Of a stretch of DNA of 64,000 nt, positions 36,942 to 45,189 are shown one piece after another. Below the pieces are notes generated by a model. That model was not told where the DNA came from and searched no databases. It saw only the letters and a list, made by a program, of their open reading frames with translations. Position 1 is the first letter of the stretch. Each line of letters begins with the position of its first letter. The stretch covers positions 124,001-188,000 of the forward strand of contig NZ_PNFP01000012.1 of NCBI RefSeq assembly GCF_002940685.1, given 5' to 3'. The stretch is from Ensifer adhaerens. Its GTDB lineage: Bacteria > Pseudomonadota > Alphaproteobacteria > Rhizobiales > Rhizobiaceae. The position numbers and the translations under genes were made by a program.

Positions 36942-38118
<1,177 letters not shown>

Positions 38119-38150: not shown

Positions 38151-40304
38151 TTACAGCGCGCAGGACACGCAGCCCTGCACTTCCGTGCCGGACAACGCCA
38201 TCTGCCGAAGGCGGATGTAGTAGATGGTCTTGATGCCCTTTTTCCACGCGTGGATCTGGGCACGGTTGATGTCGCGGGTCGTTGCCGTGTCGCGGAAGAA
38301 CAGCGTCAGCGACAAGCCCTGGTCGACGTGCTGGGTGGCCGCCGCATAGGTGTCGATGATCTTCTCCGGCCCGATCTCGTAGGCGTCCTGGTAATAGTCG
38401 AGATTGTCGTTGGTCATGAAGGCGGCCGGATAATAGACGCGGCCGATCTTGCCTTCCTTGCGGATCTCGATCTTCGAGACGATCGGGTGGATCGAGGAGG
38501 TCGAGTGGTTGATGTAGGAGATCGAGCCGGTCGGAGGCACCGCCTGGAGGTTCTGGTTGTAGAGGCCGCCTTCCATCACCGCCCGCTTCAGCTCCAGCCA
38601 GTCTTCCTGCGTCGGGATGGCGATGCCGGCTTCCTCGAACAGGTCCTTCACCTTCTCGGTCTCGGGCAGCCATTCGGCTTCGGTGTATTTGTCGAAGTAT
38701 TCGCCCGACGCGTATTTCGAGTTTTCGAAACCCCTGAAGCTCACGCCCTTCTCGACGGCCAGTCGATTGGATGCCCGGATCGCGTGATAGGTCACGGTGT
38801 AGAAATAGATGTTGGTGAAATCGATGCCTTCGTCGGACCCGTAGAAGATGCGCTCGCGGGCGAGATAGCCGTGCAGGTTCATCTGGCCAAGCCCGATCGC
38901 ATGGCTGTCGTCATTGCCCTTCTCGATCGAAGGCACGGAGGAGATGTGGCTCATCTCGGAGACGGCGGTGAGGGCGCGGATCGAGGTCTCGATCGTCTGG
39001 CCGAAGTCCGGGCTGTCCATGGCAGCCGCGATGTTCAGCGAGCCGAGATTGCAGGAGATGTCCTTGCCCATGTGCTTGTAGGAGAGGTCGTCGTTGAATT
39101 CGCTCGCCTCGCTCACCTGCAGGATTTCCGAGCAGAGATTGCTCATGGTGATGCGGCCGGCGATCGGGTTTGCCCGGTTCACCGTGTCCTCGAACATGAT
39201 GTAGGGATAGCCGCTTTCGAACTGGATCTCGGCGATGACCTGGAAGAACTCGCGCGCCTTGATCTTTTTCTTGCGGATGCGGGCATCCTCGACCATCTCG
39301 CGGTACTTCTCGCTCACCGAGATCTCGGTGAAGGGCACGCCATAGACCTGCTCCACGTCATAGGGCGAGAACAGGTACATGTCCTCGTTGTTGCGGGCGA
39401 GCTCGAAGGTGATGTCGGGAATGACGACGCCGAGTGACAGCGTCTTGATGCGGATCTTCTCGTCGGCATTTTCGCGCTTGGTGTCGAGGAAACGCATGAT
39501 ATCGGGGTGGTGGGCGTGCAGGTAGACGGCACCGGCGCCCTGGCGCGCGCCCAGCTGGTTGGCGTAGGAGAAACTGTCTTCGAGCAGCTTCATGACCGGG
39601 ATGACGCCGGAGGACTGGTTTTCGATCTGCTTGATCGGCGCGCCCATCTCGCGGATGTTGGTGAGCGACAGCGCCACGCCGCCGCCGCGCTTGGAAAGCT
39701 GCAGCGCCGAATTGATCGCGCGGCCGATGCTCTCCATGTTGTCTTCGATCCGGAGCAGAAAGCAGGAGACGAGTTCGCCGCGACTCTTCTTGCCGGCGTT
39801 GAGAAAAGTCGGCGTCGCCGGCTGGAAGCGTCCGGAGATGATCTCGTCGACGAGATCGCGGGCAAGCCCTTCGTTGCCGCGCGCCAGCGTCATCGCCACC
39901 ATGCAGACCCTATCCTCGTAGCGCTCGAGGTAGCGCTTCCCGTCGAAGGTCTTCAGCGTATAGGACGTGTAGTATTTGAACGCCCCGAGGAAGGTCGGGA
40001 AGCGGAACTTCCTTGAATAGGCGTGGTCATAGAGATCGCGCACGAAGTTGAAGGAATACTGGTCGAGCACTTCCTGCTCGTAGTAGCCCTCCGTCACCAG
40101 ATAATCGAGCTTCTCGCGCAGGTTATGGAAGAACACCGTGTTCTGGTTGACGTGCTGGAGGAAGTATTGCTTCGCCGCCTGCCGGTCCTTGTCGAGCTGG
40201 ATCCGTCCCTCTTCGTCATAGAGGTTCAGCATCGCGTTCAGCGCATGATAGTCGAGCGCTGCTTCCGTCGCCTTCAAAGGGCGTTCGAGTGTTGTGACGT
40301 CCAA
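38151..40304 (-). CDS. nrdE: class Ib ribonucleotide reductase alpha subunit
   Basis: 717 residues, normal for NrdE. Contains the ATP-cone-poor class Ib N-terminus ([20 protein letters not shown]), the catalytic core ([60 protein letters not shown]) and the redox C-terminus GCVSCAL. A TTG codon at 40304 is the likely start: it gives the usual length and the preceding GGAACGATT suits initiation. Its start overlaps the nrdI end by 31 bases. A longer open frame runs upstream through nrdI and nrdH but is not used. Confidence 0.95.
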
Positions 40305-40690
40305 AATCGTTCCATCCCGTTTTTGACATTGGCGACGTCCTCGTCGGTCCCGAGCAGCTCGAACCGGTAGAGATAGGGCACCTGGCACTTGGCCGAGATC
40401 ACGTCGCCGGCGATCCCGTAGGTCGCCCCGAAATTGCTGTTGCCCGCGGCAATCACGCCGCGGATGTGAGAGCGGTTGCCCGCATCGTTCAGGAAGCGGA
40501 TCACCTGTTTCGGCACCGCACCACGGCCTTCGTCGCCGCAATAGGTCGGCACGACGAGCACAAAAGGCTCGGCAATGGTCAGCGGCTCCTTGCCTTCCTT
40601 GAGCGGGATGCGGGCCGCACGAAGGCCGAGCTTTTCGACGAAGCGATGGGTGTTTTCCGAGCGGCTGGAAAAATAGACGATCAGCCCCAT
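40274..40690 (-). CDS. nrdI: flavodoxin-like NrdI activase
   Basis: 138 residues of the NrdI family ([18 protein letters not shown] at the N-terminus, [17 protein letters not shown] near residue 80 as the FMN loop). NrdI supplies superoxide or a reduced flavin for activating the NrdF dimanganese site. It lies between nrdH and nrdE, and its end overlaps the nrdE start. Confidence 0.95.
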
Positions 40691-40702: not shown

Positions 40703-40924
40703 TTAAGAAAGCGCGCTGATCATGTCCGGGCGGAAGCCGGCCCAATGCCGTTCCCCGGCGACGACCACCGGGACCTGGCGGTAGCCGAGACCCTGCACGA
40801 GTGCGAAGGCATCCGTGTCTTCGGAGATATCGACGATCCTGTAGTCGATGCCCTGGCGGTCGAGCGCGCGGGTGGTGGCAGTGCACTGGACGCAGGCGGG
40901 TTTGCTGTAGACGGTGATCGACAT
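40703..40924 (-). CDS. nrdH: NrdH glutaredoxin-like electron donor
   Basis: A 73-residue thioredoxin-fold protein with redox motif CVQC (about residues 11-14, [19 protein letters not shown]), and the family's QVPVVV and GFRPDMI blocks. It passes electrons from thioredoxin reductase to NrdE. GAGGAACCC precedes ATG 40924. First gene of nrdHIEF. Confidence 0.95.
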
Positions 40925-41330
40925 GGGTTCCTCGTGAGGGTCTGGCAAATGGGCGCAAAAAGTCGTCGGGTCGCGCGAACGCGAGCCGCGGTGTTGGCGA
41001 TTGGACACGAAACATCGCTCCCCGGTCGCCTCGACCGGAGTTGACGTCGTCAAGCTGGCCCAGGGTCGGTTACGCAACCGGGTCGGCTCGTTTTGCTCGG
41101 GCGCTCAGGAAACCCGCGGATGCGGGTTTTCAAGGCGCGGCCTTTCGATCAGGCGCGCAACAACGCGCACCCGTCCGCAGAAGGTGGATCTGAACTGGAA
41201 GAAACTGACATGACTTCACCCCGAAGCTATCGACAGGCTGCCGGGGAGATGTCGAGACGATCGAGCAGGTTCATCCTGCCGCAATACTCAACCCCTCCGG
41301 ACACCCCGCCCGTGGACGTTTGGTGATCGA
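40925..41330 (-). other. long nrdHIEF leader downstream of the riboswitch
   Basis: About 400 bases of transcribed leader between the riboswitch and nrdH. It holds a hairpin AAACCCGC-ATCC-GCGGGTTT (41111-41130 region) and short minus-strand open frames with ATGs near 41260 and 41212 (about 15 and 20 codons). Whether any is translated is unknown. No annotated gene is supported here. Confidence 0.4.
41298..41320 (-). promoter_or_regulatory. riboswitch expression-platform sequence (nrd copy)
   Basis: A 23-base segment identical to one at 44936-44958, 10 bases past the B12 box. On the minus strand it contains CACGGGCGGGGTGTCC, which could pair with the CCCCCGC of the aptamer core and so act as the switching arm (inference). 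Confidence 0.5.
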
Positions 41331-41521
41331 GGCAGGTCTCCTGGCTTACGGGTCAAAGCTTCCATCCCGACCTTCCCGAGGCCTCATGCCTCAGTGGTCC
41401 AATTCCGGACAGTCGCTCGCCGTCTACAGTTGCGGGGGCAGCTACGGCATAGCCTGAGCGGAAACCCGCCGGCGCACCGTATTCCCGTCTTAGCTCCCAA
41501 TCCTTGCGAATCGGAAGAACC
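41331..41521 (-). promoter_or_regulatory. cobalamin riboswitch upstream of nrdHIEF
   Basis: On the minus strand: GGTTC near the 5' end, GGGAATACGGTGCG, the core GCTGCCCCCGCAACTGTA, CCACTG, then the B12 box AAGCCAGGAGACCTGCC at 41331-41347. The order and spacing match the adenosylcobalamin aptamer. It should repress the B12-independent class Ib reductase when cobalamin is plentiful, leaving NrdJ (class II) to work. Confidence 0.95.
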
Positions 41522-41525
41522 TCGA

Positions 41526-41562
41526 ACACTAGATATAGTATCTCATCGCAAATTTGCGTCAA
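41526..41562 (-). promoter_or_regulatory. nrd promoter with NrdR box and palindrome
   Basis: ATACTATATCTAGTGT on the minus strand (41526-41541) matches 14 of 16 positions of the NrdR box ACACTATATATAGTGT and covers the likely -10. TTGACG (41557-41562) is a -35 candidate. A perfect 12-bp palindrome CGCAAATTTGCG (41547-41558) lies between. So transcription start and riboswitch may both control nrdHIEF. Confidence 0.6.
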
Positions 41563-41704: not shown

Positions 41705-42499
41705 TCAGGCAGCGAAAGCGGCCACGGGCCGGTTGTCCCCGTCGACGGCGACCATGACGAAAGTTCCGGCAACGGTCCGCTGTCGACGGCCGGTGAGGAG
41801 TTCCTCCGACCAGAGTTCGACCTCGACAGTGGCCGAACTGCGACCCGTCCGCACAATGCGGGCGACGGGTTCGATGATCGAACCGATCATGATCCGGTGC
41901 TTGAAGTCCATGCCGGTGCAGGAGGCAAGCACGGTCGTCCGGCGGCTCCGGCGCGTCGCGACGACAAAGGCCGCCTTGGTCATCTGCGCAAGGGCGTCGC
42001 CGCCGAACATGGCGCCGAAGCTGTTGGCCTGATCGGGAAAGACAATGTCGACCATGCGGAGCGTGCCCGCCGCTTCGGGTACGGTCCTTGTTCGATCGAG
42101 CGGCGGCAAGATCCAATCCGCTTGATCGGTACCGGGCATGGCGACCATGGTGAACGTGCCCCGGCTGCAGAAGTGGCGGCTGCCCGTGGCGATGTCTTCG
42201 GCAAGCATCTCGATCTCAACCACCATCGAACGTCGCCCGACCCGCGCCGGGCGGCCGGTGAAACAGACGATCTGGCCGATGCGCGCGGGGGCCTGAAAGT
42301 CGATCCGATCGCAGGACGCGGTCACGAAGGGGACGCGACCGTGACGGGTGGCGACGATGAAGGCGATCCGGTCCATGAGCGCGAGACCGGCGCCGCCGAA
42401 GAGCGTGCCATGGTGATTGGTATCGCCGGGAAACACGATGTCGATGAGGGTGGCAGGCGCCGAGGTTCTCCCCGGCGCCGTCTCAGTGTGGTCGATCAT
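41705..42499 (-). CDS. double-hotdog acyl-CoA thioesterase
   Basis: A 264-residue protein made of two hotdog domains. Domain 1 has FPGDTNHHGTLFGGAGLALM with D in LMDRIA; domain 2 has FPDQANSFGAMFGGDALAQM but T where that Asp should be (QMTKAA). This pattern fits a YciA/Acot7-type thioesterase in which perhaps only one composite active site works. Its ATG overlaps the metE stop (ATGA, 42496-42499), so it is co-translated with metE and under the same cobalamin riboswitch. The acyl-CoA substrate is unknown; see findings. Confidence 0.88.
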   Translation of the reverse strand: MIDHTETAPGRTSAPATLIDIVFPGDTNHHGTLFGGAGLALMDRIAFIVATRHGRVPFVTASCDRIDFQAPARIGQIVCFTGRPARVGRRSMVVEIEMLAEDIATGSRHFCSRGTFTMVAMPGTDQADWILPPLDRTRTVPEAAGTLRMVDIVFPDQANSFGAMFGGDALAQMTKAAFVVATRRSRRTTVLASCTGMDFKHRIMIGSIIEPVARIVRTGRSSATVEVELWSEELLTGRRQRTVAGTFVMVAVDGDNRPVAAFAA

Positions 42500-44850
42500 G
42501 CGCCGACGGACCCGCGTGGCGGAGCCGTTGGCCTCTGGCGCAGCGCCTTTGCTGCTGCGACCATGTTGACGAGCGCCGGCCGCGTCTCTTCCCAGCGCCG
42601 GGTCTTCAACCCGCAATCCGGATTGACCCAGATCTGGTCCGGCGTGAGGCCCTCGGTCGCTTTTTCGATGAGATGCACCATTTCCTCGACGCCGGGCACC
42701 CGTGGCGAATGGATGTCGTAGACGCCCGGGCCGATTTCGTTCGGATAGGCCCGCCCGGTGAAGGCTCCGAGCAGTTCCATCTTCGATCGCGATGTCTCGA
42801 TGGAGATGACGTCGGCATCCATCGCCGCGATCGCGGCCATGATGTCGTTGAACTCCGAGTAGCACATATGGGTGTGGATCTGGGTTGCATCGCCCACGCC
42901 GGCTGCGCTGAGACGGAAGCACTCCACCGCCCAGTCGAGATAGGCCTTGCGATCGGCCTTTCGCAGCGGCAGGCCTTCGCGCAGTGCCGGTTCGTCGATC
43001 TGGATGATGGCGATGCCGGCGGCCTCGAGATCGCAGACCTCATCGCGCAGCGCCAGCGCGATCTGCCGGCACACAACGGAACGTGGCAGGTCGTCGCGCA
43101 CGAAGGACCATTGCAGCATGGTGACCGGACCTGTCAGCATGCCCTTGACCGGGCGATCGGTCAGCGACTGCGCGAAGGTCGCCCACTCGACCGTCATCGG
43201 GTTCGGTCGCGAAACGTCGCCGAAGATGACAGGTGGACGCACGCAGCGCGATCCGTAGCTCTGCACCCAGCCGCTCTGGGTGAAGGCGTAGCCCGAGAGC
43301 TGCTCGCCAAAGTACTGCACCATGTCGTTGCGCTCGAACTCGCCGTGAACGAGCACGTCGATGCCGACCTCTTCCTGCCAGCGCACTGCCTGCTCGGTTT
43401 CTCGGCGAAGATAGGCGACATAATCGACATAGCTGAGCTCGCCTTTGGCATGCAGCGCGCGGGCCTGCCGGACCTCCGATGTCTGTGGGAAGGAACCGAT
43501 CGTCGTCGTCGGGAAGAGCGGCAATGACAGCTTCTTCGCCTGCAGTGCCCGGCGGTGCGCGAACGGGGATTGCCGCTTGCTATGCGCATCCGTCAGCGCT
43601 TTCAAGCGCCCGGCGACCAGGGGATCATGGATCCTGAGGGAGGTGAGCCTCGCCCGGGCAGCCGCGATCGAGGCGGTGAAGACGTGCTCCGGATTGGCAA
43701 GCCCCGGTTCGAAGGCGCTGGCAAGCAGGCTGAGTTCGTCGAGTTTCTGCGTGGCGAAGGCGAGCCAGGAGGACAGTTCCGGATCGAGCGCACGCTCCAG
43801 GTCGAGATCGATAGGCACGTGCAGCAGTGAGCATGAAGGTGCGAGTTCGATGCGGTCGCGGCCGTGGGCCGAAATCAGGGGCTGCAGACGGCGGAACAGG
43901 CCGGCCAGATCGGTCCGCCAGATGTTGCGGCCGTCAATGATACCGAGCGACAGCACCCGGTCCGCCGGAGCCGACCGGATGAGCGTGTCGACCTGCTGCG
44001 GGGCGCGTACGAGATCGACATGCAGCCCGGCGACCGGCAGCGCCAGTGCCGCTGCCGCGTTGTCGCCGATCGAGCCGAAATAGGTCGCAAGCATGATCTT
44101 GAGGCCGGGCACGTCGGTCCCAAATGTGCGGTAGGCAAGATCGAGGGCGCGACGGTCGTTGCCCGTGAGATCGAGCGCCAGGCAGGGCTCGTCGATCTGG
44201 ACCCAATCGGCGCCGGCGTCCGCAAGCTCCGCCAGGACCCGCACGTAAACGGGCAGCAGCCGTTCGATCAGGTCGATCGGATCGAAGTCGCCGTCCTTCG
44301 ATTTGCCGAGCTTCAGCAGTGACACCGGGCCGATGAGCACCGGGCGTGTGCGGTAGCCGAGCGCTTGAGCCTCCAGAAAGGCTTCCAGTGGGCGATTGCA
44401 GGTGAGCTCGAAGTGCTGATCCGTGTCGAACTCGGGCACCATGTAGTGATAGTTGGTGTCGAACCACTTGGTCATTTCGAGAGCTGGGACACCGCTGCCG
44501 CCTCCCGAATGGGTGCAGCCGGCGGCGCACGGCGTGTCGGCCGCGCCGCGCGCCATGGCAAAATAGGTGTCGAGATCGACCGGGCCGCCCGTCCACCCAT
44601 AGGCCGGCGGAATTGCCCCGACAAGCACGGCGGTATCGAGCACGTGGTCATAGAAGGAGAAGTCGTTGGACGGGATGACGTCGATGCCGCGTGCTTTCTG
44701 TGCGGCCCAGTTTTCGGCGCGGAGCCTGGCTCCGGTGCCGAGAAGTTCGTCGCGGCTCGCCTTTCCGGCCCAATAGCGTTCGAGCGCGAATTTCAGTTCG
44801 CGACGGCGGCCGATGCGCGGGAAACCGAGATTGGCAGTCTTGATGGTCAT
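42496..44850 (-). CDS. metE: cobalamin-independent methionine synthase
   Basis: A 784-residue MetE, which transfers a methyl group from 5-methyltetrahydropteroyltri-glutamate to homocysteine without B12. The N-terminal half begins TANLGFPRIGRRRELKFALE. The C-terminal catalytic half carries zinc ligands in HMCYSEF (His, Cys) and NPDCGLKTR (Cys), with DVISIETSRS supplying Glu. AAGGAA immediately precedes ATG 44850. The 118-base leader after the riboswitch at 44968-45155 holds the platform element. It overlaps the thioesterase gene by 4 bases. Confidence 0.97.
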   Translation of the reverse strand: MTIKTANLGFPRIGRRRELKFALERYWAGKASRDELLGTGARLRAENWAAQKARGIDVIPSNDFSFYDHVLDTAVLVGAIPPAYGWTGGPVDLDTYFAMARGAADTPCAAGCTHSGGGSGVPALEMTKWFDTNYHYMVPEFDTDQHFELTCNRPLEAFLEAQALGYRTRPVLIGPVSLLKLGKSKDGDFDPIDLIERLLPVYVRVLAELADAGADWVQIDEPCLALDLTGNDRRALDLAYRTFGTDVPGLKIMLATYFGSIGDNAAAALALPVAGLHVDLVRAPQQVDTLIRSAPADRVLSLGIIDGRNIWRTDLAGLFRRLQPLISAHGRDRIELAPSCSLLHVPIDLDLERALDPELSSWLAFATQKLDELSLLASAFEPGLANPEHVFTASIAAARARLTSLRIHDPLVAGRLKALTDAHSKRQSPFAHRRALQAKKLSLPLFPTTTIGSFPQTSEVRQARALHAKGELSYVDYVAYLRRETEQAVRWQEEVGIDVLVHGEFERNDMVQYFGEQLSGYAFTQSGWVQSYGSRCVRPPVIFGDVSRPNPMTVEWATFAQSLTDRPVKGMLTGPVTMLQWSFVRDDLPRSVVCRQIALALRDEVCDLEAAGIAIIQIDEPALREGLPLRKADRKAYLDWAVECFRLSAAGVGDATQIHTHMCYSEFNDIMAAIAAMDADVISIETSRSKMELLGAFTGRAYPNEIGPGVYDIHSPRVPGVEEMVHLIEKATEGLTPDQIWVNPDCGLKTRRWEETRPALVNMVAAAKALRQRPTAPPRGSVGA

Positions 44851-44935: not shown

Positions 44936-44958
44936 CGGACACCCCGCCCGTGGACGTT
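44936..44958 (-). promoter_or_regulatory. riboswitch expression-platform sequence (metE copy)
   Basis: Identical over 23 bases to 41298-41320 and at nearly the same distance (9 bases) from the B12 box. Such conservation outside the aptamer suggests a shared switching mechanism. Confidence 0.5.
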
Positions 44959-44967
44959 GTTCATCGC

Positions 44968-45155
44968 GGCAGGTCTCCTGGCTTGCGGGTCGTCGCGGAC
45001 CGTTCCGTCTTCCCGAGGCGTCTTCCTCAGTGACATCATCGAACGGCCGCTCTCCGCCTACAGTTGCGGGGGCAGCTCCGGCATGGGCGCTTTTGAAGGC
45101 GCCGTACCGAATTCCCTCTTAGCTCCGTCCCGCCGCAAGGCGGGCGAAGAACCAC
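44968..45155 (-). promoter_or_regulatory. cobalamin riboswitch upstream of metE
   Basis: On the minus strand: GTGGTTC, GGGAATTCGGTACG, core GCTGCCCCCGCAACTGTA, TCACTG, and B12 box AAGCCAGGAGACCTGCC at 44968-44984. The core and B12 box are identical to the nrd riboswitch; stems P3-P8 differ in sequence. It should switch metE and the thioesterase off when cobalamin is present. Confidence 0.96.
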
Positions 45156-45189
45156 GATGGGGCGACAATGCCCTGTCCTGGCCCTCCCG

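Follow-up and report, generated by a model that had tools for sequence, protein, structure and literature searches.

Why would a gene for a coenzyme A (CoA) thioesterase be placed behind metE, under apparent control of cobalamin (B12)? This question is raised by a 64,000-nucleotide window of Ensifer adhaerens DNA (contig NZ_PNFP01000012.1, positions 124,001 to 188,000), in which a gene for a predicted double-hotdog acyl-CoA thioesterase (hereafter TE) directly follows the gene for cobalamin-independent methionine synthase. A first-pass annotation of the window had proposed that, when B12 is scarce and methylmalonyl-CoA mutase is idle, the enzyme relieves the resulting acyl-CoA block, as a third arm of the B12-starvation response. 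Based on its conservation in other genomes, membership of TE in a cobalamin-riboswitch regulon is well supported. We favor, with a probability of roughly 0.55, the reading that TE is such a third arm and acts by hydrolyzing propionyl-CoA, methylmalonyl-CoA or related short acyl-CoAs.

The locus occupies the minus strand in the order riboswitch, metE, TE, second riboswitch, nrdH, nrdI, nrdE, nrdF (window coordinates):

44951-45171, minus strand: cobalamin riboswitch RF00174, leading metE and TE (cmscan 112.2 bits, E 2.8e-27, model positions 1-189 of 189)
42496-44850, minus strand: metE, cobalamin-independent methionine synthase, 784 amino acids (aa), full length (TIGR01371 1105 bits, cut-off 929.95)
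41705-42499, minus strand: TE, double-hotdog acyl-CoA thioesterase by family, 264 aa (open reading frame and Pfam)
42371-42373, minus strand: codon for Asp43 of TE, a catalytic-type Asp in the N-terminal hotdog (alignment)
41314-41539, minus strand: second cobalamin riboswitch RF00174, leading nrdHIEF (cmscan 118.4 bits)
40703-40924, minus strand: nrdH (open reading frame list; start from the length of the annotated homolog in locus L093)
40274-40690, minus strand: nrdI (open reading frame list; matches annotated nrdI loci)
38151-40270, minus strand: nrdE, start approximate (open reading frame list; NrdJ model 223.6 bits, below the NrdJ cut-off)
36942-37916, minus strand: nrdF, start approximate (open reading frame list; 82% match to an NrdF-like frame behind nrdE in locus L126)

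The TGA stop codon of metE (42496-42498) and the ATG of TE (42497-42499) are fused in an ATGA overlap, and the metE riboswitch falls just beyond the interval 41705-44850 to which the first-pass annotation had referred; its statement that the TE start overlaps the metE stop behind that riboswitch was thus borne out. A simple pattern scan found neither promoter-like nor terminator-like sites on the minus strand of the metE-TE interval. The two genes are probably co-transcribed.

The arrangement is not peculiar to this strain. A co-directional cobalamin riboswitch was present upstream of 29 of the 35 double-hotdog loci that we inspected (loci and genomes are designated L and G, respectively), in Alpha- as well as Betaproteobacteria. 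In 18 of them the order is riboswitch-metE-TE (the window, eight more genomes of the genus, the Ensifer plasmid locus L098, and L099, L100, L072, L074, L075, L066, L116 and L117), while in ten TE is itself the first gene (L014, L015, L016, L017, L093, L094, L095, L096, L097 and L069), and in one metE has decayed (L073, in genome G243). Recurrence beyond a single strain, on which the earlier proposal had hung, is therefore evident. By contrast, none of 17 generic YciA-like control loci, picked from lower-scoring matches of an order-level genome sample rather than randomly, had a cobalamin riboswitch within ±4 kb (29/35 versus 0/17, Fisher p 4.6e-9, ignoring kinship). The short overlap between metE and TE is also conserved more than expected by chance: when the in-frame start closest to the end of metE is taken, 15 of the 18 pairs show an overlap of -4 (one with GTG), the rest being spaced +1, -1 and +5. 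In three of these 15 pairs, a further in-frame ATG follows at +20 to +23.

Locus L073 combines an intact TE with a weak riboswitch (46.7 bits), and fragments of metE lie between the two; its genome contains metH and no NrdJ match over the cut-off. This locus is a natural case of metE loss that spared TE.

The partners of TE vary among the ten loci in which it comes first. Seven contain mesX and mesD, namely three from Shinella (L016, L017, L097) and those of Rhizobium P38BS-XIX, Sphingomonas p1, S. medicae pSU277_4 and Comamonadaceae pOS401; MesX was identified by Pfam in L015, the other mesX/mesD genes by homology or annotation. MesD and MesX are described as a route of B12-free methionine synthesis (PMC7857596). 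One locus, on Azospira pAZI09, has the order riboswitch-TE-ribonucleotide reductase genes, next to a divergent riboswitch with genes for a TonB receptor, an ABC transporter and a cobalamin adenosyltransferase. In L069 metE stands behind TE (riboswitch-TE-metE), and the short contig of L014 carries neither mesX/mesD nor ribonucleotide reductase genes. TE thus stands first in ten loci, and its partner is variously metE, mesX/mesD or ribonucleotide reductase; we therefore suggest that what these loci have in common is B12 and not methionine.

A role in methionine chemistry was also considered and is disfavored, because TE or a close relative likewise occurs in ribonucleotide reductase layouts (L095, L120, L121, L124); in L120 and L124 metE is also present, on the strand opposite TE. 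Islands of metE-nrdHIEF without TE exist on Pararhizobium and Rhizobium plasmids, as judged from a blastn match covering the riboswitch region and metE rather than from an Rfam scan, and TE was not found in these plasmid records at E 1e-25. We therefore regard TE as an optional module.

Several of these loci have features of their own. In L096 (pOS401, AP026971.1), riboswitch-TE, a metR-like gene, a flavin reductase gene, mesX and mesD lie between two annotated IS1071 Tn3-family transposase genes, so that the cluster looks like a composite mobile B12-bypass cassette. L093 (pSU277_4, NZ_CP104151.1) is a B12-independence island on a 73-kb plasmid: of its three cobalamin riboswitches within 12.7 kb, one leads TE-LysR-mesX-mesD, another nrdHIE(F) and the third a DUF1636-methyltransferase-ABC transporter set. 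In L015, L017 and L097, the riboswitch is followed by TE and a LysR gene that resembles metR (192.9 bits, under the MetR cut-off). The mesX-mesD-flavin reductase genes are divergent, with no riboswitch detected for them; control of mesXD by the riboswitch may run through the LysR regulator.

Within the genus, 9 of 16 genomes contain TE and 10 of 16 a full-length metE. In all nine TE carriers, TE directly follows metE and a riboswitch precedes metE. The tenth genome with full-length metE (G307) yielded a TE match of just 36 residues, and two others (G299, G308) contain scraps of metE and lack TE. These TE or metE remnants lie near a cobalamin riboswitch (L082 in G307, L091 in G299, L092 in G308), pointing to repeated loss of the island.

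Outside the genus, the distribution of TE is patchy. With the window genome counted in each sample, TE occurred in 3 of 151 genomes at the family level (E 1e-25), as a double-hotdog protein in 6 of 150 at the order level, in 6 of 385 at the class level (two cut by contig ends, plus one single-hotdog match) and in 4 of 398 at the phylum level (plus ten single-hotdog matches and the diverged G694); about the best six to seven candidates per genome were scored in the class and phylum samples. A plasmid collection contained TE in 14 records (E 1e-25). The TE counts exclude G694/L118, which is 29% identical and has an in-frame stop, and L018, which is 35% identical and for which no riboswitch was found. 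Context mapping covered the matches other than the single-hotdog G948 and G1026 and the plasmid matches H3, H4 and H10.

Which B12-dependent reaction might call for a thioesterase? The window genome (G000, with the window on contig C4; 7.5 Mb, 81 contigs, eight RF00174 matches) encodes MetH (1738.7 bits) and NrdJ (468.5 bits), both over the cut-off, so that both known bypass arms have a B12-dependent counterpart. It also encodes a single PF01642 mutase (804.8 bits). We take the PF01642 class of about 760-830 bits to be methylmalonyl-CoA mutase, the class of about 440 bits to be ethylmalonyl-CoA mutase and its long-frame type to be IcmF. A PF01642 match of at least 758 bits was present in 16 of 16 searched riboswitch-led TE genomes, those of the other 12 riboswitch-led loci lying outside this search, and 21 of 23 searched double-hotdog genomes had a PF01642 match. 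In addition, prpB did not exceed the cut-off in any of 12 tested riboswitch-led TE genomes; none was detected in the window genome, and G116 gave a sub-cut-off match (286.9).

These co-occurrences are compatible with the following scenario. At low cobalamin, the first riboswitch would permit expression of metE and, through translational coupling, of TE, while the second riboswitch would switch on nrdHIEF. MetE would then substitute for MetH and NrdHIEF for NrdJ, covering two of what may be three B12 enzymes and leaving the mutase uncovered. Because no prpB, and hence no methylcitrate-cycle substitute for the B12-dependent mutase, was detected in the window genome, propionyl-CoA and methylmalonyl-CoA derived from Ile, Val, odd-chain fats and propionate would accumulate behind the idle mutase and tie up CoA. 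TE may cleave these esters or close short acyl-CoAs, whereby CoA would be freed and the acids could exit. Judged from genomic context, that is, the presence of the mutase, the lack of prpB and the occurrence of relatives in methylcitrate operons, relief of a propionyl-/methylmalonyl-CoA block seems to be the best and most economical explanation; methylmalonyl-CoA itself is one choice among several acyl-CoAs.

The relatives in question are single-hotdog proteins, of which 14 were found (E 1e-25 or better in the order sample, 1e-40 or better in the class and phylum samples) and 12 mapped. Five of the mapped genes head a methylcitrate operon, TE-prpD-prpC-prpB (L079, L080, L122, L125, L126). NCBIfam models confirmed PrpC and PrpB in L122 and L126, where PrpD scored 918 against a cut-off of 950 in L126; prpB beside the single-hotdog gene follows from match positions in all five, and prpC in L079, L080 and L125 was deduced from the layout. 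Four of these five stretches (all but L125) contain a cobalamin riboswitch, which does not lead the single-hotdog gene. Three other single-hotdog genes stand behind riboswitch-nrdA-nrdB (L120, L121, L124), and a fourth (L119) follows nrdA-nrdB in a stretch where no riboswitch was found; the gene precedes metE in L081 and riboswitch-metE in L071, and L123 shows no such link.

In a tree of individual hotdog domains, the B12-linked domains formed one clade apart from 15 generic YciA-like proteins (100/100). The C-terminal halves of the double-hotdog proteins grouped with the single-hotdog proteins of the prp clade (83/89, not starred), and 3 of 19 N-terminal halves (L069, L095, L096) fell outside the main N-half clade. 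This final tree leaves out L018 and L132, because of a long-branch warning, and L129, which is identical to L128; in an earlier tree, L018 and L132 paired on a long branch on the B12-linked side.

The TE protein comprises two 4HBT hotdog domains (Pfam PF03061, two stretches, E 2.4e-31). Its residues 8-259 align to Agrobacterium AGR_L_2016p (PDB 2gvh, E 5.3e-92), likewise a double hotdog, while 6vfy and 4zv3, presumably ACOT7, gave weaker matches. The closest named relative found was from Ensifer adhaerens L18 (91% identity). Assignment to YciA proper was rejected, as TE scored 91.4 bits with the NCBIfam equivalog NF007970 (cut-off 162). Asp43 is invariant across a 22-row alignment that includes the window TE, and Asp43 and Asn28 are conserved in 19 of 19 N-terminal halves; Asp is also kept at this position in all five nrd-clade single-hotdog proteins. 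In the C-terminal half of the window TE, Thr occupies the catalytic-Asp position and Asn159 is retained, so that Asp43 and Asn159 would provide the combination of a catalytic Asp and an Asn from the facing domain expected of a thioesterase. Catalytic residues are given as Asp44 for the Haemophilus influenzae enzyme and as Asp213 and Asn24 for acyl-CoA thioesterase 7 in PMC2698920, which also describes 2gvh as a double-hotdog trimer whose sequence motif places it among the acyl-CoA thioesterases. Asp43 lies in the N-terminal domain of TE, and its counterpart in 6vfy and 4zv3 is the LMD motif of their second domain; by this alignment, TE looks like a mirror image of ACOT7, with one putative active site per chain.

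A number of observations weigh against a role of TE in relieving a mutase block. Six of the 35 double-hotdog loci are not riboswitch-led: in L076, L077 and L078, TE is divergent from a riboswitch that leads a btuB-like TonB-type receptor gene (receptor by Pfam in L076), L068 and L070 have TE cut by a contig end, and the sixth is L067. Genome G243 combines an intact TE with prpB and has no PF01642 match; since its metE is decayed and its riboswitch weak, the island is possibly decaying, yet it is a real exception. G501, with TE cut by a contig end, also has no PF01642 match, prpB is present in G138 and G028 (TE not riboswitch-led), and PF01642 gave no match in 3 of the 14 genomes with a single-hotdog protein. 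Within the genus, genomes lacking an intact TE had the mutase in three of three tested cases and no prpB over the cut-off in four of four; as TE-free genomes thus share both features, neither predicts TE inside the genus. Among TE-free comparison genomes, which are few and unmatched in lineage and size, PF01642 was found in 4 of 20. The search for B12 enzymes comprised MetH, NrdJ and PF01642, so that others, such as epoxyqueuosine reductase, are left out of the account. Finally, the catalytic Asp is absent from 19 of 19 C-terminal halves and 7 of 7 prp-clade single-hotdog proteins, and the facing Asn is found in 14 of 19 C-terminal halves, including that of the window TE, with Ser in four and Asp in one of the others. 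The third-arm idea of the first-pass annotation is partly supported: regulon membership stands, by recurrence and by the ten loci with TE in first place, whereas a propionyl-/methylmalonyl-CoA role is backed by genomic context, with G243 as a counterexample.

TE could instead be B12-controlled and act on a different substrate, such as ethylmalonyl- or crotonyl-CoA in connection with ethylmalonyl-CoA mutase or isobutyryl-CoA in connection with an IcmF-like mutase, or it could contribute to general turnover of acyl-CoAs when growth is slow. Substrate range is often wide among YciA/ACOT relatives, and the second PF01642 type of about 440 bits does occur in G076, G116, G680 and G631, as well as inside frames of 1202-1278 aa in four gamma relatives. 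However, each of the nine TE-containing genomes of the genus has the match of about 805 bits alone, and some single-hotdog relatives sit in methylcitrate operons; overall, we consider a different substrate unlikely. An ethylmalonyl-CoA pathway in the genus of the window is disfavored by the same lack of a second PF01642 match in these nine genomes.

The residue losses in the C-terminal halves and in the prp clade would also fit an acyl-CoA-binding or partner protein, for example a sensor or a partner subunit for other hotdog proteins, in place of a hydrolase. The invariant Asp43 and Asn28 in the N-terminal halves, with Asp43 aligned to the LMD motif, argue against this possibility and render it improbable. 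That TE is a passenger of the metE operon with no B12-related role is very improbable, since TE, although it tracks metE in the genus (full-length metE in 9/9 genomes with and 1/7 without TE) and is missing from some metE-nrd islands, is often first behind its own riboswitch and has non-metE partners in eight loci (mesX/mesD in seven, ribonucleotide reductase in one), and keeps the short overlap in most metE pairs.

How does a third arm that frees CoA compare with known systems? Bypass of B12 in bacteria is usually described as replacement: MetE takes over from MetH, alternative ribonucleotide reductases take over from NrdJ, and different propionate routes stand in for the mutase. The window shows the same riboswitch family and logic as the cobalamin-riboswitch control of metE and of B12-independent nrd genes, with metH and nrdJ elsewhere in the genome. 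Unlike MetE or the alternative reductase, TE is no isozyme of a B12 enzyme: instead of taking over a reaction, it would relieve a block. We lean towards viewing it as a variant of cobalamin-riboswitch bypass that employs a relief enzyme in place of an isozyme. TE shares its 4HBT domains with YciA and ACOT7/ACOT12, as well as an Asp in the catalytic position. The prp operons with a leading thioesterase resemble the TE loci in that a related protein heads prpD-prpC-prpB, but, unlike TE, this protein is a single hotdog without the catalytic Asp.

An acyl-CoA thioesterase is also listed with prpBCD in a Paracoccus gene table (PMC10370305). For 2gvh, no function or B12 link was found in the consulted portion of PMC2698920, and the portion of PMC6461909 dealing with B12-independent alternatives contains no thioesterase. 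An exact-word search of open-licence papers, which provides weak evidence of absence, retrieved no description of a cobalamin-riboswitch-controlled thioesterase; in the examined parts of papers that contain both "cobalamin riboswitch" and "thioesterase", the thioesterases are unrelated.

Tentatively, we extend the third-arm reading to a specialized family of acyl-CoA hydrolases for B12 starvation that would spread horizontally. In bacteria that depend on methylmalonyl-CoA mutase and have no methylcitrate cycle, such an enzyme, under riboswitch control, would drain the propionyl-/methylmalonyl-CoA trap; together with metE or mesXD and a B12-independent ribonucleotide reductase, its gene would form a complete island for life without B12, plasmid-borne or chromosomal. 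If the third-arm reading is correct, cells would, besides replacing B12 enzymes, manage the acyl-CoA jam that builds up when the mutase is idle, in a bacterial parallel to methylmalonic aciduria; the solved structure 2gvh would gain a role, and B12 independence may travel as a gene island.

Elsewhere in the window genome (L003, G000:C55:98085-101286), a cobalamin riboswitch directly precedes a gene for the alpha subunit of a Rieske ring-hydroxylating oxygenase (PF00848, PF00355), and the L100 riboswitches have a gene with the same Pfam composition nearby.

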